Shown piece by piece: positions 7,754-50,246 of a stretch of DNA of 64,000 nt. Origin of the DNA: Mariprofundus ferrooxydans PV-1 (GTDB lineage Bacteria > Pseudomonadota > Zetaproteobacteria > Mariprofundales > Mariprofundaceae); assembly GCF_000153765.1 (NCBI RefSeq), contig NZ_DS022294.1, positions 1,362,049 through 1,426,048 of the forward strand, read 5' to 3'. Numbering within the stretch: the stretch's first letter is position 1; every line of letters starts with the position of its first letter. A program made the translations under genes and the position numbers. A model generated the notes under the pieces. It was not told the origin of the DNA. It saw only the letters and a program-made list of their open reading frames with translations, and did no database searches.

Positions 7754-10282
7754 CTAGATGTGAATGCTTAGACCGCTGTCGCTATGGAAGGCGGAGTGGC
7801 GGTTAGCTGCGATGGGTGATGTTTTTACGTTATCAGTGCTGTTTTTATCCGGTTGTGAGCCACCGGATGACTGGCGATCGCCAAAGCCGGATGAGGCTTG
7901 TCCCCCATGTGATCCCATGGAGAAGCCCGAGAGGTTCAAACCCTGCTCTGCCAGTGCATGCCTGATGGCCGGTAGTTGCTGATCCATTGCTGTTCTGGTT
8001 CCCGACTGATCGACAATCATATGGATCTGAATCTGTTTGCTGGCATCTGTTTGCAATGAGATGTGGATTTTTCCGAGGTTGACGGGATCCAGTTGGATTT
8101 CCAGTTTGGTCTGACCATTTTTTGCCGATTGGGCAATGTGTTGGATGGAATCAAACATGGTCATGGTGGGGGTCGGGCGGTGGTTTAAATATTGTTGAAA
8201 GTGGCTGGCCGAGACAGATGCTGAGGCAGGCCGGTTATCGGCAGAGGTGACCTGAAAACTGTGGGGCTCCTGATTACCTTTGTCGCCCGACTGCTGTCCG
8301 CTATCGCCCTGGGCAAGTCCCTGCGTTAAAGCTTCGGCTGTGGATGTGCCGGCTGCTGCTGGGGGCTGCGATGGTTGCTGTGTTGTGACATTGTGCAGAG
8401 CCACCGGACTCACGCGTTCGGTTCCGGCATTTTGTTTGGCTTCGCTGGCATGTTTGACTTTTTCATTTTTTGCCAAGCCAGCAGCTTGTTTCTCACCCTT
8501 GACTGATGGGATGGCCCGGCTAAATACGGTACTCTCAGGTGCCTGCTCCGATGTTTGCGGGCTGTTTTGCATTGCTGCTGCTGTGGATACAGTAGCACTG
8601 CTCCTCGCCGTCATTACTTTATCTTCGGCGCTGCTGCCTGCCTGGGTGCTAGGTGCCTGTTTTGCAGGCTGACTCTGTTTGCCTGCTGTGAACGCTGTTG
8701 CCGCTGCCGCAAGCTTCGTTTGACTGTTGAATTTTGGCTGCTCTGCATCATCCCCTTTAGTCGCGATCTGGATAGAAGTCTCTTTGGCCTGAGCAACAGG
8801 CGTACTGAATTGCTTGCCGCCAGCAGTGGCTTGCACGGGGCCAGCTTTGTGGGGGCCGGCCTGTAATGCTGCAGCTTTGGCGCCAGCAACAGGTGTGTTG
8901 ATCTGTTTGTTGTCAGGGGCTTGCAGTGGTGCAGCTTTGGCATCAGCAACAGGTGTGTTGATCTGCTTGCCGTCAACGGTTTGCACCGGGGCTGCTTTGT
9001 GAACTTCAGCCTGCAGCGGTGCAGTAGTTTTGGCATCAGCAACAGGTGTGTTGATCTGCTTGCTATCAACGGTTTGCACCGGGGCTGCTTTGTGAACCTC
9101 AGCCTGCAGTGGTGCAGTAGTTTTGGCACCAGCAATCGGTGTGTTGACCTGTTTGTTGTCAGGGGCTTGCAGTGGCGCAGCTTTGGCATCAGCAACAGGT
9201 GTGTTGATCTGCTTGCTGTCAACGGTTTGCACCGGAGCTGCTTTGTGAACCTCAGCCTGCAATGGCGCAGCTTTGGCATCAGCAATCGGTGTGTTGACCT
9301 GTTTGTTGTCAGGGGCCTGCAGTGGCACAGCTTTGGCATCAGCAACAGGTGTGTTGATCTGCTTGCCGTCAACGGTTTGCACCGGGGCTGCTTTGTGAAC
9401 CTCAGCCTGCAATGGCGCAGCTTTGGCATCAGCAACAGGTGTGTTGATCTGCTTGCCGTCAACGGTTTGCACCGGGGCTGCTTTGTGAACTTCAGCCTGC
9501 AGCGGTGCAGTAGTTTTGGCATCAGCAACAGGTGTGTTGATCTGCTTGCTATCAACGGTTTGCACCGGGGCTGCTTTGTGAACCTCAGCCTGCAATGGCG
9601 CAGCTTTGGCATCAGCAACAGGCGTGTTGATCTGCTTGCTATCAACGGTTTGCACTGGGGCTGCTTTGTGAACTTCAGCCTGCAGCGGTGCAGTACTTTT
9701 GTCGTCAGCAACAGGCGTGTTGATTTGCTTGCCGTCAGTGGTTTGTAACCGTACTTCTTTAGTATCAGTAGTCTGAGTATTACCCTGCTTGTGTCCGTGA
9801 GCTGCCTGCACTGATGTGTCTTTAGTTGATGTGACGGGTACTGTTTTATTCTGTTTGCCTGAGTTGCTGCCGAAGTGGATTGTCTGCCTCTTCCCTTCCG
9901 TAGTTTCATCAGGGTTAAACTGGAAGGCTGTAGACTTCGGAGTTGTGGCATGCGGCTGGCTTAATATTTGTAGGGCTACGGCCTGAACGGTTGAGCCATC
10001 TTCGGAGTTGTTGATCTGTGGAGTGGCGAGCTTTGTTGCTGTGGCTGGTCCGGTCAACAGCTCTTTCTGTATTGATTTCTGTTGTCCCAGTGTGATGTGC
10101 TGTACAATAGTAAATTTCGGCTGCTGGTTGTCGGCGGGAGATGCGTTGCCTTCACTACCCTTACCTTGTTTGCCAAGTATGGCCATAAGTTTAGCAAACA
10201 AGCCCGAGGCTGCCTGTTTGCCGGTGCTGGCGCTCTTTTCTGCGATGCCGGATGAGCCGGGTCCCGTCACTTGTTCTATCAT
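7754..10282 (-). CDS. fliK: Flagellar hook-length control protein FliK, repeat-expanded
   Basis: An 842-aa secreted molecular ruler that sets hook length and triggers the switch of export specificity. The C-terminal hook-length domain (about residues 690-790, including the LDPVNLGKI motif) identifies it. The N-terminal three quarters is disordered and rich in Ala/Gln/Lys/Thr. It includes a long array of near-identical units (see the repeat feature). At 842 aa it is about twice the usual FliK length. Just upstream of the start codon there is no clear Shine-Dalgarno. Because FliK is stretched during measurement, the array should lengthen the hook unless compensated. Confidence 0.92.
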   Translation of the reverse strand: MIEQVTGPGSSGIAEKSASTGKQAASGLFAKLMAILGKQGKGSEGNASPADNQQPKFTIVQHITLGQQKSIQKELLTGPATATKLATPQINNSEDGSTVQAVALQILSQPHATTPKSTAFQFNPDETTEGKRQTIHFGSNSGKQNKTVPVTSTKDTSVQAAHGHKQGNTQTTDTKEVRLQTTDGKQINTPVADDKSTAPLQAEVHKAAPVQTVDSKQINTPVADAKAAPLQAEVHKAAPVQTVDSKQINTPVADAKTTAPLQAEVHKAAPVQTVDGKQINTPVADAKAAPLQAEVHKAAPVQTVDGKQINTPVADAKAVPLQAPDNKQVNTPIADAKAAPLQAEVHKAAPVQTVDSKQINTPVADAKAAPLQAPDNKQVNTPIAGAKTTAPLQAEVHKAAPVQTVDSKQINTPVADAKTTAPLQAEVHKAAPVQTVDGKQINTPVADAKAAPLQAPDNKQINTPVAGAKAAALQAGPHKAGPVQATAGGKQFSTPVAQAKETSIQIATKGDDAEQPKFNSQTKLAAAATAFTAGKQSQPAKQAPSTQAGSSAEDKVMTARSSATVSTAAAMQNSPQTSEQAPESTVFSRAIPSVKGEKQAAGLAKNEKVKHASEAKQNAGTERVSPVALHNVTTQQPSQPPAAAGTSTAEALTQGLAQGDSGQQSGDKGNQEPHSFQVTSADNRPASASVSASHFQQYLNHRPTPTMTMFDSIQHIAQSAKNGQTKLEIQLDPVNLGKIHISLQTDASKQIQIHMIVDQSGTRTAMDQQLPAIRHALAEQGLNLSGFSMGSHGGQASSGFGDRQSSGGSQPDKNSTDNVKTSPIAANRHSAFHSDSGLSIHI
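8850..9735 (-). repeat. Tandem repeat array inside fliK
   Basis: Seven copies of a 30- or 31-residue unit containing HKAAPVQTVD and KQINTPVADAK alternate with three copies of a shorter 20-residue unit ending in LQAPDN. This gives a mosaic array of about 0.9 kb. Copies are nearly identical at the DNA level (differences include AAPLQ versus TTAPLQ). That implies recent duplication or gene conversion. Unit lengths are multiples of three bases, so the frame is kept and antisense frames also stay open. There are no unique spacers, so this is not a CRISPR array. Confidence 0.9.
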
Positions 10283-43100: not shown

Positions 43101-45497
43101 TCATTTGCCCAGTCCGAAAAAGCCGGAGTCTTTCGCATCGGCGGGAATTTCCCCTTCGTTGGGTGGTGTCTCTTTTGTCGGAGCTGTGCCAGCGCGGAAC
43201 GCTTCAAGTGTGATTTTCTCACTGTCCGGGCCGGGCAGTAGTCCGCTTTTTTCATCAATAGCAACCCATTCAATGCCCGGCGGCGGGGTGAATGATTTTT
43301 TCTCTTTGCCCTGATGAAATGCCTTCATAGCGGCCAGCCAGGTAGGCAGGGCTGCATGGGCACCGGTTTCTCTGCGGCCCATCGTGGAGGGGGTATCCCG
43401 TCCTGTCCATACACCGGTCAGAATCTGTGGGGTGTAGCCCATAAACCATGCATCGACCTGCTTATTGGTGGTGCCGGTTTTGCCGGCAGCCGGCCGGTTC
43501 AGGGCGCGGGCGCGGCGGCCTGTACCGTGCTGGATCACGCCTTCCATCAGGTTGGTGATCAGAAACGCATTGACGGGGTCAATTGCCTGATCGGCAGGCC
43601 GCATGTGTTCATTCACCGCCATGACCGGGTCGGCATGGCATATCTGGCATCGGTGACCGGCAACAGCACGGTAGACCGTTTTGCCGGTGCGATCCTGTAC
43701 CTGCTGTATGGAAACAGGTTTCCATTTCTGACCGTGGCTTGCCAGTACGGCATAGGACTCGGTTAATGCCTCCGGCGTTACCTCTGTGGCGCCAAGTGCC
43801 AGCGCCAGCTGGGCAGGGAAGGTGCGCTGCAGGGGGTAGACTTGCAGGTCGCTCAAAAAGTGCTGGATGCCGACGTTTTGTAATAATTTGATTGAGGCGA
43901 GATTGCGCGAGTGCTCAAGTGCATTGCGTAGCGTAACCGGGCCGGCAAACTTGTTTTTATAGTTTTCCGGACGCCAGAAGCTATCGCCGCTTTGCCCGTC
44001 AAACACGACCGGAGAATCCATGATGATTGAGGCCGGGGTATAGCCGCTGGCCAAAGCCGAGGTGTACAGAAATGGTTTGAACGCACTGCCCGGCTGTCGC
44101 TTGGCCTGACCGACACGGTCAAAGCCACTGGTCTGATAATCATAGCCACCTACGCGAGCCAGTACGGTGCCTCGTTCCAGGTCAATGGCATAGAGTGCGG
44201 ATTCAATCGACGGCTCCTGTGACAGGCGTACTCCCTGTTTTCCATCCCCCTGCAGCCGGATTTCATCACCGGCAATCCATGTGCGAGGATGGTGTTTCAG
44301 GATGGCCATCTGCGCATCAGTGGCCCCCTCTTCCCGGTAATCATCTAGCGATTTCCACGACCACTTTGGTTTCTTTAACTGCCATCTGCGGAAACCGTCA
44401 TTGACGGTGAGATCCCCTTTTGCCGACACCTTTTCCACCAAAGCGGGAAACACTCCGTCGCCTGCCAGCGAGGGTGCGGTGTTATCTGCCTGTTCGCGCC
44501 AGTTGGAGAGCAGGGCACTCCAGTCTGCGCGTGGGTGATAGGTTGGATAGCGGTAGTGCTGTCCTCTCTCAACCTCCAGCACGCCGTGGCGTAAAGCACT
44601 GATGGCGGCCAGCTCCGCTTTGGGATCGTAAGGGATCACAATGGTGAGACCCTGATTGCGCAAGGTTTTCAGGCCAAATCGGTGAATCAGTTCGTGATAG
44701 ACCTGATCGGCATAGGCATCGACCAGCTTGGGCTCTTCCAGCGGTTGGATCTTGAGCGGTTCCTTCAGGGCTTTGGCAACGGCCTGCTTGTCGGCCATGC
44801 CGCTGCTCCGCATCAGTTTCAATACCGTGTTACGGCGCTGCAGTGCCTTCTCAGGGTTGATATGCGGCGCATACTTGCCCGGCGCTTTTGGCAGCCCTGC
44901 CAGTACGGCGCATTCGCTCAGGGTCAACTCATCCAGCGACTTGTGAAAGTAACGCCATGCCGCAGATGCAACACCGTAGGAGCCGCGCCCCAGATAAATC
45001 TGGTTCAGATACAGATAAAGGATATCCTCTTTTGAAAATGCCTGCTCAATTTTGTAGGAGAGAATCGCCTCGCGAATCTTGCGGGTGTAGGAACGCTCAT
45101 TAGTCAGCAGAAAGTTTTTCGCCACCTGTTGCGTAATGGTCGATCCGCCCTGTACTGTGTGGCCGGCTCGCAGGTTCGCCAGGGCAGCGGAGAGGATGCG
45201 GGCGGGATTGATGCCGGGGTGTTCGTAGAACTGCTGGTCTTCTGCAGCCAGAAAGGCGTTGACAAGCTGCTTGGGGATTCTATCAAACGGAGTCAGGATG
45301 CGGTGTTCATCGGCGTATTCCGCCAGCAGTTCGCCGTCGGTATTATATACGCGGCTGACCAATGGCGGCTGGTACTCTGACAGGGCGGAGAGCTTGGGCA
45401 GGTTGCTGGAAAAAACCATATAGCCTATGGTGAGCCCTATGGCGGCAAGGACACTCAAGGAGATGATGATTTTCGCGATAAGAGAAAAGATGCGCAT
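43101..45497 (-). CDS. mrcA: Penicillin-binding protein 1A
   Basis: A 798-aa bifunctional peptidoglycan synthase. An N-terminal membrane anchor (residues 5-27) is followed by a GT51 glycosyltransferase (EDQQFYEHPGI, GGSTITQQVAKN). An OB-like insert typical of PBP1A comes next, then the transpeptidase with SxxK (Ser471 in GSAFKPF), SRN and KTG (GKTGTTN). The open frame extends to 45566, but the start at 45497 gives the normal N-terminus MRIFSLIAK. The C-terminal tail is proline- and lysine-rich. Confidence 0.95.
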   Translation of the reverse strand: MRIFSLIAKIIISLSVLAAIGLTIGYMVFSSNLPKLSALSEYQPPLVSRVYNTDGELLAEYADEHRILTPFDRIPKQLVNAFLAAEDQQFYEHPGINPARILSAALANLRAGHTVQGGSTITQQVAKNFLLTNERSYTRKIREAILSYKIEQAFSKEDILYLYLNQIYLGRGSYGVASAAWRYFHKSLDELTLSECAVLAGLPKAPGKYAPHINPEKALQRRNTVLKLMRSSGMADKQAVAKALKEPLKIQPLEEPKLVDAYADQVYHELIHRFGLKTLRNQGLTIVIPYDPKAELAAISALRHGVLEVERGQHYRYPTYHPRADWSALLSNWREQADNTAPSLAGDGVFPALVEKVSAKGDLTVNDGFRRWQLKKPKWSWKSLDDYREEGATDAQMAILKHHPRTWIAGDEIRLQGDGKQGVRLSQEPSIESALYAIDLERGTVLARVGGYDYQTSGFDRVGQAKRQPGSAFKPFLYTSALASGYTPASIIMDSPVVFDGQSGDSFWRPENYKNKFAGPVTLRNALEHSRNLASIKLLQNVGIQHFLSDLQVYPLQRTFPAQLALALGATEVTPEALTESYAVLASHGQKWKPVSIQQVQDRTGKTVYRAVAGHRCQICHADPVMAVNEHMRPADQAIDPVNAFLITNLMEGVIQHGTGRRARALNRPAAGKTGTTNKQVDAWFMGYTPQILTGVWTGRDTPSTMGRRETGAHAALPTWLAAMKAFHQGKEKKSFTPPPGIEWVAIDEKSGLLPGPDSEKITLEAFRAGTAPTKETPPNEGEIPADAKDSGFFGLGK

Positions 45498-45564
45498 GTA
45501 CCCGAATCCAACCGCAAATGAGGCAGGCAGGCAAGCCGGAGTATCAGCGCGGCCCGGCTCGGGC

Positions 45565-45993
45565 ATGCGTCAGTGCGGTTTTACTTTGCTGGAGCTGTTG
45601 ATTGTCATCACGATTATCGGTGTTCTGGTGACGATAGCCGTTCCTGCTTTTGCCAGCTGGCGCGAAAATCAGGCGGTGCGCTCGGCGACACAAACCCTGC
45701 TTGCGCAGCTGAAACAGGCCCGTGTGTTGGCCATGAGTGAAAACAGGAGTGTGAGCATCACATTTACCGGCACCTCCTATGTCTTTGATGCTGATACGAG
45801 CGGGAGCGGTGCATGTGACCGGTGTCGAAATGAAGCTGTAGACCTGAGCAAGTTTTCAACCAGTCTGTCTGTCTCACCGACAACCACCCGCACGTTCTCC
45901 AGTCGGGGTACATCCAACTCCGGAACCATTACGCTGACTGCCGGCAATGCCAGTCAAACGATCACCCTCAATGTGATCGGCAGGGCCTACTAG
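45565..45993 (+). CDS. FimT/GspH-type minor pilin
   Basis: About 142 aa. The prepilin signature is MRQCG followed by FTLLELLIVITIIGVLVTIAVPAF: a short leader cut after Gly, Glu at +5 and a hydrophobic helix. Cysteine pairs in the C-terminal part (GACDRCR) may form a disulfide. The frame is open far upstream; I prefer the short 5-residue leader. A start at 45496, which would abut the mrcA start on the other strand, cannot be excluded. First gene of a four-gene pilin set. Confidence 0.85.
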   Translation: MRQCGFTLLELLIVITIIGVLVTIAVPAFASWRENQAVRSATQTLLAQLKQARVLAMSENRSVSITFTGTSYVFDADTSGSGACDRCRNEAVDLSKFSTSLSVSPTTTRTFSSRGTSNSGTITLTAGNASQTITLNVIGRAY

Positions 45994-45994
45994 T

Positions 45995-46480
45995 ATGGAT
46001 ATGCAACAGGAGCAGGGATTTACCCTGATTGAGATTCTCATTGCGCTGGTGGTGGTGTCAGTGGGCGTGCTGGCGCTGGGGGGATTTTCGGTTTCGGTGA
46101 TGAGTAGCGGACAGACTTCCCGCGAACGATTGACGGCGGTGCATCTGGCTGAGCAGGTGCTGGAGCACTGGCAGCATGATGCCAACGATTACGCGCCGGT
46201 TATCACGACATCAACCTGTGCGCTGAGTGATGCTGGCAGCGCTCCTGCTTACCCTGTAACGACGGTATGCACCTCTTCAACCGGTGCAGGGACCAGTTTC
46301 ACGGTGATGGTCAACGAAACTCAGGCAAACGGACCTTTGCCGGCGAGTTTGTCGACGCTCACCGCGTTTACCCAGCAGGGCTATGCAAATGTGCCCAAGA
46401 CCAAGGTGGTATCTGTCTCCTGGAATCGTAGAGGGGCATCTCACCAAATTTACCTGACACATTTGTCGCAGGCGAAATGA
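45995..46480 (+). CDS. pilV: PilV-type minor pilin
   Basis: A 161-aa prepilin with leader MDMQQEQG and the N-terminal FTLIEILIALVVVSVGVLALGGF helix, Glu at +5. Order after fimT and before pilW and size fit PilV, a minor pilin of the type IV pilus tip complex. It starts 1 bp after the previous stop and is overlapped by pilW. Confidence 0.85.
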   Translation: MDMQQEQGFTLIEILIALVVVSVGVLALGGFSVSVMSSGQTSRERLTAVHLAEQVLEHWQHDANDYAPVITTSTCALSDAGSAPAYPVTTVCTSSTGAGTSFTVMVNETQANGPLPASLSTLTAFTQQGYANVPKTKVVSVSWNRRGASHQIYLTHLSQAK

Positions 46481-47121
46481 GTATGGAAAAGGCTTTTCAC
46501 AATCGCGGCGGGGAGGCGGGCTTCACGCTGATTGAGCTGATGATCAGCATGGTGATGGGGTTGATTATCATTGCCGGTCTGGCCTCGGTCTTTGCGACCA
46601 ATGGCAGGGTAGTCAGTGCGGTGACCTCCCGTACGGAGCGGATGGGGGATCTGTACCTGGCTTCCCAGTTGATGCAGGCGGGGTTGCGTGAGTCCCGGAG
46701 TACGCCGGATGCGACGACTTCTGTGCTGACCGACCTGAGTAACCGGGGTATCACCTCGCCTTCCGGATATCCCGCCAGTGATGCTACATTTGCTTCATTG
46801 CCCTATTGGGATGCAGCCAGTAAGACGCTCACCTATCAGGACCTGGATGGGCATGTCGGCATTTTTCAGTATCAACGCCCCAGCAACAACTGCCCGAACA
46901 ATGGTGCAGGCTGTATCTATTGGCTGCGCCCGTTGGCTGCAGGTGTCTCCGGTTCGTCCACCTTTCAGGAGATGTTGCGGAACTTGGACACAACGAACGG
47001 CATGGTTGCCTCCACATCAGCTGCTGGCGGTGTCAGTGTGGCGCTGCAGTCCAGATATACGAATGAACAGCGCCAAAGCAGCACGTTGTCACTGAGTTTT
47101 AAGCTATGGCCGAGGAACTGA
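46477..47121 (+). CDS. pilW: PilW-type minor pilin
   Basis: A 214-aa prepilin with leader ending GGEAG and the FTLIELMISMVMGLIIIAGL helix. It has the long C-terminal domain usual for PilW, with a cysteine pair (NNCPNNGAGC). It overlaps pilV by 4 bp and pilX by 16 bp. Confidence 0.85.
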   Translation: MSMEKAFHNRGGEAGFTLIELMISMVMGLIIIAGLASVFATNGRVVSAVTSRTERMGDLYLASQLMQAGLRESRSTPDATTSVLTDLSNRGITSPSGYPASDATFASLPYWDAASKTLTYQDLDGHVGIFQYQRPSNNCPNNGAGCIYWLRPLAAGVSGSSTFQEMLRNLDTTNGMVASTSAAGGVSVALQSRYTNEQRQSSTLSLSFKLWPRN

Positions 47122-48077
47122 ATGTGAGGAATCATCAATTGTCGCATGAGGCGCAGAGCGCGCACAGTCAACGTGGTTTCGTGCTGGTCACCGCGCTGGT
47201 GATGCTGGGGTTGCTGACACTGATGTCGCTGGCCATGTTTTACTCAGCACGCATCGCCACCCAGACCAGTGGCACAGCCCAGAGTTCGACGGAAGCTTAT
47301 TATTATGCTGAAACAGCTCTGCATTATATGTCCTGGGCGCTGGCCAATGATGCGGAGTTCGATAGTCATACTTACTCCGGGACCTATATTCATGCGCCGT
47401 TTGGTGAGCCTGCAACGTCTGGCAATCCTGTGCCTGCTAATGCAGCCTCGGTTGGAGATTACAGTGAGCTGCAGGGTTACTTGTGGAGTCCCGGCCCGAC
47501 AGCGATCAGTGATACACTGGCTGCCGGTGTCACCGGGCAGTTGATGTATTTCGATAACTCACCGATGAGCAGTCGTCATCTATGCCTGCAGGATGCTGCC
47601 CTGTTTTCAAACTGTGTGGACGTCACGGTTGATCCGACCAGCCGGGTGGAGCCTTCGATGAACAAGATCAGCGCTCAACTGCCGCGTTATATTCGTCTGG
47701 ATATTGCAGCCGATGGTTCAATTACGCCTTCAATCCCGTCGCTGCCTCACCATACAACGCCGGTTGTCGGAGAGGATATTCCGAACAATGGTGCGATTAT
47801 CTGGCTAACAGCAGGCGATCCGACCAATGCAAATCACGATATCGAGATATTTCCTCTCGACCCGGCCAATGTTTATAGTGGAACATCGCCAACGGCCTGT
47901 ATCGGCGGTACTTTGCCGAGCTGCCCGTGTGATTCCGGAGCCGCGGTCTCATTTGCAACGGCACAGGCCTGTGATGCGAATAGTGGCCAGTGGCTGTCCT
48001 CTTACAGTATTGTGGCGTATGCAATTGGTTATGTGAACGGCAAGCCCAGTCATATGTTGCGGGCCGTGATTCAGTAA
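47106..48077 (+). CDS. pilX: PilX-type minor pilin
   Basis: A 323-aa protein with the degenerate pilin N-terminus of PilX (RGFVLVTALVMLGLLTLMSLAMFYSA, no Glu at +5). The conserved AYYYAETAL segment follows the helix. Four cysteines lie near the C-terminus. It overlaps pilW by 16 bp. PilY1 and PilE, which normally follow, are absent; secreted low-complexity proteins come instead. Confidence 0.82.
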   Translation: MAEELNVRNHQLSHEAQSAHSQRGFVLVTALVMLGLLTLMSLAMFYSARIATQTSGTAQSSTEAYYYAETALHYMSWALANDAEFDSHTYSGTYIHAPFGEPATSGNPVPANAASVGDYSELQGYLWSPGPTAISDTLAAGVTGQLMYFDNSPMSSRHLCLQDAALFSNCVDVTVDPTSRVEPSMNKISAQLPRYIRLDIAADGSITPSIPSLPHHTTPVVGEDIPNNGAIIWLTAGDPTNANHDIEIFPLDPANVYSGTSPTACIGGTLPSCPCDSGAAVSFATAQACDANSGQWLSSYSIVAYAIGYVNGKPSHMLRAVIQ

Positions 48078-48175: not shown

Positions 48176-48658
48176 ATGCGGAATATGTTTTTGATGGCCT
48201 TTTTCGGGCTGTTTATGGTTGCAGGCTTCACGACCCAGCAGGGCGTGTGTGGCTTGATGATGGCGCCTGCGTTTGCGGGTGATGACCACGAAAGTAACAG
48301 CAGCCATGAAGATAGAAACAACGGTGACGAGCATGCTGGCAACAACGACAGTAATAGCCACCATGAAGACAGCAATAAGGGTAACGAGCATGCTGACAAC
48401 AACGACAGCAAAGACAGCAAAGACAGCTCTAATGACAGTGCCAGCAAAGACAATTCTAATGACAGTGCCAGCAAAGACAGTGGCAGCAGTGATGATCAGG
48501 CCAGCACGGCCTTTCACTGTCCTGCGGGCGTCACAACCTGCTACAGCGCTGATGGTCAGAAACATACAGATCTGAACAATCTGCCTGCGACGGCAGCCGG
48601 CCCGGGGTCGACTGGTAGCGGAGCAGCTCTGATGCCGACCCACATGCGCTCCTTATAA
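48176..48658 (+). CDS. Secreted Asp/Asn/Ser/His-rich low-complexity protein
   Basis: A 160-aa protein with a signal peptide (residues 1-35, ending PAFAG). About 80 residues of low complexity, rich in D, N, S, H and K (for example NNDSKDSKDSSNDSASKD), follow. The C-terminus has two cysteines (FHCPAGVTTCYSADG). Strong GGGGGGA before the ATG. Function unknown; acidic, His-containing repeats could bind Ca2+ or iron. It sits 99 bp after pilX and is followed by a strong terminator, so it may belong to the pilin transcript. Confidence 0.75.
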   Translation: MRNMFLMAFFGLFMVAGFTTQQGVCGLMMAPAFAGDDHESNSSHEDRNNGDEHAGNNDSNSHHEDSNKGNEHADNNDSKDSKDSSNDSASKDNSNDSASKDSGSSDDQASTAFHCPAGVTTCYSADGQKHTDLNNLPATAAGPGSTGSGAALMPTHMRSL

Positions 48659-48679: not shown

Positions 48680-48713
48680 AATGGCGTCTGCTTCGGCAGG
48701 CGCCATTTTTTTT
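48680..48713 (+). terminator. Strong terminator with UUCG loop
   Basis: A 12-bp stem from AATGGCG to CGCCATT with CTGC-TTCG-GCAG at the top (48680-48707), one T-G pair, followed by eight T (48706-48713). It closes the pilin/48176 transcript. Confidence 0.9.
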
Positions 48714-48879: not shown

Positions 48880-49626
48880 ATGAAGAAAAACACACTGTTT
48901 ATTATCATGTTGGCGGTCATGTTCAGCTTTGCTTTTACAGCTGAAAACGGCGCGTTGTCGTTCGGGGTTTCATCCGCACTGGCGAAAGATGACCACAACA
49001 ATGACAACGGCAACAAAGATGACCACGGCAATAACAATGACAACGGCAACAAAGATGACCACGGCAATAACAATGATAATGGCAACAAAGATGACCACGG
49101 CAATAACAATGATAATGGCAATAAAGATGACAACGGCAACAGCAATAAAGTGACTATTTGCCATGTGCCGCCCGGCAACCCGTCGAATAAGCAAACTTTG
49201 AGCGTCAGCCAGTCAGCTGTTAATGCGCATATGGCGCATGGAGACTCCATGGGGGCTTGTAGGGTAACTATTTGCCACTTTACCACGAGTACGAACAGCA
49301 GCTCAAACAATGAGAGCGAGAACAAGAACGAAGACAAGAATGAAAACAAAAACAGTAACAAGAACGATGACAGCAATGGCCATCACAGCGCTGCTGCTAG
49401 CAGCAGCGTGACTGCCACTACAATTGAAATCAATGAGTCGGATCTTAATGCGTATCTGGCGCAGGGAGATACTCAGGGTGCGTGCTCGCCTTGTGCTCGT
49501 CCATCGGTGTCAGGGATTGTAGATGCATCCAATGCCACTTGTACCCGTGCAGATGGTACGCCGGGAGTTCGTTCAGGTGCTAACGTGACTACGCCAAGCA
49601 GCGTGCGGGAAGTCTTCGGCAACTAA
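48880..49626 (+). CDS. Secreted protein with duplicated Cys-His-PPGNP motif and 12-residue repeats
   Basis: A 248-aa protein with a signal peptide (about residues 1-35). A low-complexity region of four 12-residue repeats like NNNDNGNKDDHG (about 40-88) follows. Next is the motif VTICHVPPGNPSNKQT..AVNAHMAHGDSMGAC (91-127). A second, diverged copy begins VTICHF (129-134) and resumes at TIEINESDLNAYLAQGDTQGAC (181-202), split by about 45 low-complexity residues. The C-terminal domain ends VREVFGN. The motif is known in many secreted proteins of unknown function. RBS AAGGAG is good. Confidence 0.8.
   Translation: MKKNTLFIIMLAVMFSFAFTAENGALSFGVSSALAKDDHNNDNGNKDDHGNNNDNGNKDDHGNNNDNGNKDDHGNNNDNGNKDDNGNSNKVTICHVPPGNPSNKQTLSVSQSAVNAHMAHGDSMGACRVTICHFTTSTNSSSNNESENKNEDKNENKNSNKNDDSNGHHSAAASSSVTATTIEINESDLNAYLAQGDTQGACSPCARPSVSGIVDASNATCTRADGTPGVRSGANVTTPSSVREVFGN
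48991..49146 (+). repeat. 36-bp tandem repeats coding for N/D/G/K/H-rich units
   Basis: About four copies of a 36-bp unit encoding 12 residues (GNNNDNGNKDDH and variants). The first copies are nearly identical and the last diverge (AAC to AAT changes). They are coding and contiguous, without spacers. Confidence 0.85.
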
Positions 49627-49661
49627 CTGACTCTGGTTGTGCAGGGTTAGTGATCGCAATG

Positions 49662-49689
49662 ACGGCGTCCCGATTGGGACGCCGTTTTG
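49662..49689 (+). terminator. Terminator after the 48880 gene
   Basis: A perfect 10-bp stem ACGGCGTCCC/GGGACGCCGT (49662-49671, 49676-49685) with a GATT loop is followed by TTTTG. Confidence 0.85.
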
Positions 49690-49811
49690 TTTGGTGGCAG
49701 GATTGTTGAGATATCAGGGGGTAGTATGGACGACTGTGAACGGCAGGTGTCTGGCAGCTGATGATATTTCCGCTACACTTCAATGTTGGTGTGGTGGTTA
49801 AAGGAGAGTAT

Positions 49812-50246
49812 ATGATAAAATACACATGGTTTGTTTTTATGCTGGCGGCGATGCTGGGGTTTTCCTTCAGCGCCGAAAAGGGCATTGTCTATGTCGACAT
49901 CCCGTCCGCCTTGGCCGGTAGTGAAAACGGTAACAAGAGCGATAATGGCAAGAGTGATAACGGCCATAAAAACAATGGCAAGAGTGATGATGAAAAAAAG
50001 GTGACGGTTTGCCATTTTCCTCCCGGCAACCCGAAGAATGCCAGCACAATGAGGGTGAGTGAGTCTGCGCTGCATGCGCATCTGGCCCATGGGGATACCA
50101 GGGGCGTATGCGGACCTTGCGCCTGTCCGACAAATGGCGGCGTTGAGACGCCTGAATGTTACTGTGCCAATGGCATGCCCGGAGTCGTTCCCGGCGTCAA
50201 TTCCACCACGCATCCGAATAATGTGAGGCAAATTTTCGGCAATTAA
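49812..50246 (+). CDS. Secreted paralogue with a single Cys-His-PPGNP motif
   Basis: A 144-aa protein with a signal peptide (about residues 1-36), a short N/K/D/G-rich stretch (38-62) and the motif VTVCHFPPGNPKNAST..ALHAHLAHGDTRGVC (64-100). A Cys-rich C-terminal domain ends VRQIFGN. It is homologous to the 48880 product over the motif and the C-terminus but has one motif copy and few repeats. The start at 49812 has AAGGAG at good spacing; the frame upstream is unused. Function unknown; paired Cys/His could coordinate a metal or form disulfides. Confidence 0.8.
   Translation: MIKYTWFVFMLAAMLGFSFSAEKGIVYVDIPSALAGSENGNKSDNGKSDNGHKNNGKSDDEKKVTVCHFPPGNPKNASTMRVSESALHAHLAHGDTRGVCGPCACPTNGGVETPECYCANGMPGVVPGVNSTTHPNNVRQIFGN

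Follow-up and report, generated by a model that had tools for sequence, protein, structure and literature searches.

In the marine iron oxidizer Mariprofundus ferrooxydans PV-1, a small array of genes encodes apparently secreted Cys-His proteins that are probably new parts of the type IV pilus tip. Since this rests on sequence and gene order, we infer rather than observe the association with the pilus. What a cell adheres to and what it senses depend on the tips of its type IV pili. Here a full fimT-pilV-pilW-pilX cluster occurs without a detected PilY1 and with a conserved alternative in its place, which, if the reading is right, would provide a far smaller tip module that lends itself to testing. 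The Cys-His domain is unnamed and found in no protein-family library searched. The window analyzed is the whole stretch of 64,000 nucleotides, and the features of the pilin cluster and gene family described below lie on its forward (+) strand.

Gene A (positions 48880 to 49626) encodes a two-domain protein of 248 aa and gene B (49812 to 50246) a one-domain protein of 144 aa. The start of B is most likely the ATG at 49812, behind an AAAGGAG site, which gives 144 aa versus 161 aa for the longest frame. A preliminary description of this DNA had placed two adjacent genes with a common motif here, and both the genes and the motif are present; its claim of a secreted family is supported by signal-peptide-like N-termini, from which, read by eye, A and B read as secreted. 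A search of the whole genome with B found both parts of A (E values of 2e-16 and 3e-16), so A and B are homologous, and found no further match beyond the pair. The array consists of three genes rather than two, the gene at 48176 to 48658 included. The description was silent on this third gene, as it was on the type IV pilus operon, the recurring loop insertions in relatives, and the breadth of the domain. A and B share a layout of signal peptide (by inspection), low-complexity N/D/K/S/G stretch, Cys-His domain, and short Cys-containing module. The Cys-His domain is 38 residues long and occurs once in B and twice, back-to-back, in A. In A, the N/D/K/G-rich linker (48997 to 49146) is encoded by a 36-bp tandem repeat of 4.2 copies with 94% matches. 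The C-terminal Cys modules (49486 to 49626 in A and 50112 to 50246 in B) end in SSVREVFGN and NNVRQIFGN, giving a shared extreme C-terminus of VR-[E/Q]-[V/I]-F-G-N. The R-x-x-F-G-N end described earlier is thus present in both proteins, as a local variant of a broader tail, R-[E/S/Q/T]-x-x-G-[N/Q]. Directly after the linker (48997 to 49146), A carries a canonical copy of the domain (copy 1, 49147 to 49260) followed by a split one (copy 2, 49261 to 49485). After the "CH" of copy 2, a low-complexity loop of 46 residues (49279 to 49416) stands in place of the 10-residue PPGNP loop; the interruption of about 45 residues claimed earlier is therefore real and amounts to about 36 inserted residues net. 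PPGNP is absent from copy 2, which reads AYLAQGD where AHxxHGD is expected (His28 to Tyr and His31 to Gln), so that both helix histidines are gone while C, H6, G, D, and C, including both cysteines, are retained; it matches the domain profile over positions 15 to 38 (2.4e-4). The DNA of the two VTICH starts in A is nearly identical (gtgactatttgccat and gtaactatttgccac), in line with a local duplication, and the inserted stretch is made up of short AGAACA-like repeats. Together, these features bear out the proposed duplication followed by repeat insertion. The second copy is split in genomes G007 and G011 too, as is a single copy in G010, all at the same hairpin loop as in A, and short-loop forms (CHDGSTLSV and CHNGHSITIS) are without most of that loop. 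Given that long inserts and near-deletions both fall there, the hairpin loop is a tolerant site rather than part of the core, and we take the split copy of A to be, most likely, a knob or spacer that has degenerated. Elsewhere in the window, a protein encoded beside flagellar genes (7754 to 10282), of the hook-length-control type by position, has a repeated HKAAPVQTVDSKQINTPVADAK unit.

The third family member (48176 to 48658) sits between pilX and A and has a signal peptide, an acidic, N/D/S/K-rich low-complexity stretch, a CPAG..CYSADG module, and the end HMRSL, without a Cys-His domain. Its orthologues occupy the same place in relatives, and since the counterparts in G015 and G016 carry a short-loop Cys-His domain, the domain was likely lost from this gene. 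Terminator-like hairpins with T runs follow the third member (48680 to 48707, 12 pairs) and A (49661 to 49686, 11 pairs). Accordingly, the three genes may differ in expression level, and the third member and A need not be cotranscribed with pilX.

AlphaFold (83 sequences) predicted a beta-beta-alpha fold for the domain of B (49998 to 50111; strands at residues 2 to 6 and 16 to 20, helix at 22 to 30), with a mean confidence of about 86 to 94 over the domain, unlike the tail, which was modelled poorly. The preliminary description had called for a family-wide alignment of the motif; made from 140 distinct copies, it has Cys5 (133/133), His6 (133/133), Gly32 (138/138), and Cys38 (135/135) invariant where aligned. 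His28 (136/138), His31 (133/138), and Asp33 (137/138) are close to invariant in the same copies, which were gathered with PPGNP- and AHLAH-based patterns that inflate the conservation of the loop and partly that of His28 and His31. Substitutions fall on the helix histidines or Asp33, and the cysteines missing in a few rows are alignment ends. Copy 1 of A and the domain of B have the complete signature of Cys5, His6, His28, Gly32, Asp33, Cys38, and a variable hairpin loop. Searches of Pfam, NCBIfam, and PHROG with the proteins and the domain alignment returned no match in the domain, searches of the PDB by sequence and by fold returned no credible match, and literature searches by motif strings returned nothing relevant. 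The domain is clearly widespread yet unnamed, a gap in family libraries that covers hundreds of proteins in many phyla.

The preliminary description proposed that the conserved Cys and His residues could hold a metal. For the His/Asp set, which is conserved, metal binding is plausible, and His6, His28, His31, and Asp33 are perhaps a functional cluster, possibly a metal site; the two cysteines more likely form a disulfide (Cys5-Cys38). Because copy 2 of A lost its helix histidines and kept both cysteines, we take the cysteines to be disulfide-bonded and the histidines to have a function. The same natural variant suggests that the histidines are not needed for folding, and it bears on the alternative of a metal-free domain with a purely structural role, a disulfide mini-fold in which the histidines form a hydrogen-bonded core. 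The very small size of the domain, its invariant Cys pair, and a confident predicted fold without metal are what such a mini-fold would have, whereas conservation of three histidines and an aspartate across bacteria and archaea suggests a function; we consider this alternative, which covers the domain only and is compatible with a place at the pilus tip, doubtful. The further suggestion of extracellular iron chemistry is not supported, as Bacteroidota, Planctomycetota, Nitrosopumilus, and others also have this domain without an evident tie to iron; in view of this taxonomic spread, we rejected iron-specific chemistry as its general role.

Directly upstream of the family genes and in the same direction lie four minor-pilin genes: fimT/fimU-like (45427 to 45993), with a prepilin-type N-terminus by sequence and conserved as the first cluster gene in relatives; pilV-like (45995 to 46480; Pfam N_methyl, 1.1e-07) and pilW-like (46477 to 47121; N_methyl, 3.9e-06), both in conserved order; and pilX-like (47106 to 48077; RG/FVLVTAL, with no Glu at +5), with a PilX_N match of 2.9e-04 that is below the curated cut-off. 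A pilX match was found in 23/23 genomes of the Mariprofundus-like genus, in one solely at an E value of 4e-4. The order conserved in relatives is mrcA(-)/fimT-pilV-pilW-pilX followed by one to four family members in a row, at about 50 to 1000 bases from pilX in genus genomes, and often, further downstream, by an approximately 275-aa membrane protein and then pilMNO(P)Q. That membrane protein (L034:10618-11439 and equivalents), located between the Cys-His genes and pilMNO(P)Q in many Mariprofundus-like genomes, had no Pfam family above cut-off. PilX ends (LRAVIQ, IRAVIR, LRSVVQ) resemble the ends of Cys-His proteins (VREVFGN, LREIYGQ, LRSIHGE), a likeness that could reflect a shared strand or chance. 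PilQ is encoded in the PV-1 genome as well, with the pilQ match about 1.26 Mb from the minor-pilin cluster.

Of the 23 genus genomes, 14 gave a Cys-His domain in profile searches and 18 a match in a full-length search, some via parts outside the domain; B was matched in 20/41 related genomes, a pattern far above chance. Most genomes in which enough sequence is available have a relative with the tail just behind pilX. Even in the domain-free G003, G013, G014, and G018, a secreted low-complexity protein with the same tail is encoded after pilX, which suggests that the tail-bearing protein is the constant element and the domain optional. No family gene was seen after pilX in G010 and G012, where members are encoded elsewhere in the genome. 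Cys-His proteins are also encoded at pilin-free loci in several Mariprofundaceae (L040, L045, L049, L196, L197, and L201), some with an N-terminal CDC or CMC motif, and a further member away from pilin genes is found at L042.

In a species-level genome collection, at least 427 loci, bacterial and archaeal, encode the domain, as found with a narrower alignment that yields a wide set biased toward PPGNP forms. These relatives belong to Bacteroidota, Planctomycetota, Omnitrophota, Myxococcota, Chloroflexi, Gemmatimonadota, Nitrosopumilales, and others. Among 398 Pseudomonadota genomes, a sample enriched for near relatives, 29 have the domain, and nine of these lie outside the order. In eight of the nine, the domain either forms part of a PilX-like pilin by fusion or is encoded within or next to a minor-pilin cluster. 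The fused pilins, with a mature N-terminus without Glu5, occur in G029, G047, G060, G137, G165, and G169, and their PilX-like identity comes mostly from N-termini read by eye, with weak support from Pfam PilX_N for some. G140 has the domain in secreted proteins within a minor-pilin cluster and G177 in a partial gene near a pilin gene; in G127 no pilin link was visible. With a few pilin clusters, each about 15 kb, in a genome of 4 Mb, we roughly estimate the probability of such a link by chance at below 2% for each genome. G029 has two separate minor-pilin loci (L048:9871-10761 and L050:8962-9687), each with a PilX-like pilin fused to the domain. By inspection, fusions of the domain to PilX-like pilins without Glu at +5 also occur in Dadabacteria (L058) and in L129. 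N_methyl is the commonest Pfam companion of the domain (9/75 wide proteins, partly from related Omnitrophota) and TIGR02532 the commonest NCBIfam companion (6/75), while companions in other phyla include PKD, SdrD_B, FecR, Calx-beta, carboxypeptidase-regulatory, and other surface domains. One Omnitrophota pilin with the domain was modelled at a mean pLDDT of 69, with a long helix at the N-terminus, strands at the C-terminus, and a beta-beta-helix arrangement of the domain; a fold search of the PDB with this model returned no credible match. A mobile-element origin was rejected, with no match in phage records and a single Halorussus match in plasmids. As its distribution indicates, the domain is a general extracellular module that has been put on pilins repeatedly. 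A membrane protein of about 910 to 956 aa with a spermidine-synthase-like domain and TPR repeats (Pfam was run on L037, L205, and L208) recurs beside pilin or Cys-His genes in several lineages (L037:7787-10639, L039:12741-15548, L047:10190-13015, L198:5648-8518, L205:62-2803, and L208:975-3707).

PilY1 is the textbook soluble tip protein of type IV pili and the usual partner of PilX. The PilY1 profile, PF05567, matched none of the 23 genus genomes and 106 of the 398 sampled Pseudomonadota. Neither A, B, nor the third gene had any Pfam match, and PF05567 was found nowhere in the PV-1 genome. Weak PilY1 matches were found in three domain carriers outside the order (G060, G127, and G137); these rule out a general rule that the domain replaces PilY1 and limit any replacement to the Mariprofundus-like lineage. 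In that lineage, to judge from gene order, the family genes stand where PilY1 stands in the best-known pili.

We propose, at a little short of an even chance, that A, B, and the gene at 48176 encode soluble proteins that are exported by Sec and partner the tip complex of a type IV pilus made of FimT, PilV, PilW, and PilX, given their signal-peptide-like N-termini (by inspection), their location after pilX, the lack of a PilY1 match, and the PilX-like fusions elsewhere. After export by Sec, the conserved C-terminal module and R-x-x-x-G-[N/Q] end would dock on the PilX-topped minor-pilin complex, and the low-complexity stretch would serve as a flexible arm of variable length. The 38-residue domain would be an exposed binding knob at the pilus tip, held by a Cys5-Cys38 disulfide clasp, whose His6/His28/His31/Asp33 cluster may bind a divalent metal or ligand and which may contact surfaces or partners. 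Against this reading count the members away from pilin genes, the many relatives in other phyla that are unrelated surface proteins, the distant pilQ, the terminators after the first two genes, and the weak PilY1 matches in three of the nine outside carriers.

Several of these same points would be expected if the proteins were instead secreted matrix or cell-surface proteins with pilus genes as mere neighbors and the domain a generic extracellular knob of unrelated surface proteins: the surface-domain companions in other phyla, several Mariprofundus-like copies not near pilins, and the family genes' own terminators. We consider this unlikely, as placement after pilX is kept across genus and family, which is hard to explain by neighborhood alone, and PilX-like pilin fusions recur in unrelated lineages. 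Alternatively, the proteins could be substrates that a type II-like machinery or the type IV pilus itself releases; the R-x-x-x-G-[N/Q] tail would then signal their secretion, and the domain would do its work outside. The tail is conserved in members with and without the domain, and PilY1 has been compared to a type II secretion substrate to which GspK/PilX binds (PMC7541494). Release is nevertheless very unlikely in our estimation, since the fused PilX versions need none and, to our knowledge, no secretion signal has the form R-x-x-x-G-[N/Q].

Altogether, the family is real and conserved, the domain unnamed and widespread, and the pilus association strong, with a putative function. A bolder extension of the pilus-tip reading, which we hold to be quite unlikely in full, is that type IV pilus tips repeatedly use, as a working surface, an uncatalogued extracellular metal-binding mini-domain shared by bacteria and archaea and that, in Mariprofundus-like iron oxidizers, this domain displaced PilY1 via a family of small soluble tip proteins whose knobs, borne on repeat arms, are exchanged and multiplied.

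The domain can be compared with several known systems. Like C2H2-like zinc fingers, it has a predicted beta-beta-alpha topology in which strand 1 ends in ligand-type residues and the helix contains others; unlike them, it is extracellular, has an adjacent Cys-His instead of CxxC, has a near-invariant Asp and an invariant Cys after the helix, and matches no PDB entry by structure or sequence. The Cu-binding MopE motif (PF11617) is likewise a putative extracellular metal-binding motif and co-occurs with the Cys-His domain in 2/75 proteins, but it differs in sequence and had no match in the window proteins. Tip pilins of the PilX/GspK class (PF14341, PilX_N) carry the same domain as a fusion in several other Pseudomonadota, whereas A and B have apparent signal peptides (by eye) and no class III prepilin leader with a hydrophobic helix, which is present in some domain-carrying relatives. 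The closest parallel is with PilY1. In Myxococcus, soluble PilY1 is encoded with FimU-PilV-PilW-PilX and interacts with the minor pilins encoded beside it and needs PilX in order to accumulate; the complex is assigned to the tip, and PilY1 to the tip of the priming complex (PMC7541494). Proteins of the A/B type resemble it as apparently exported soluble proteins (signal peptide by eye) encoded beside fimU-pilV-pilW-pilX, with a variable N-terminal part, a conserved C-terminal part, and a presumed tip position. They differ in having no PF05567 beta-propeller, in their size (about 110 to 270 aa versus mostly more than 1000 for PilY1), in having up to four paralogues per locus, and in carrying a Cys-His domain in contrast to the EF-hand-like calcium site of PilY1. 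Known PilY1 proteins require calcium (PMC7541494, PMC8833165), a need that a metal-dependent tip knob would, by analogy, fit.
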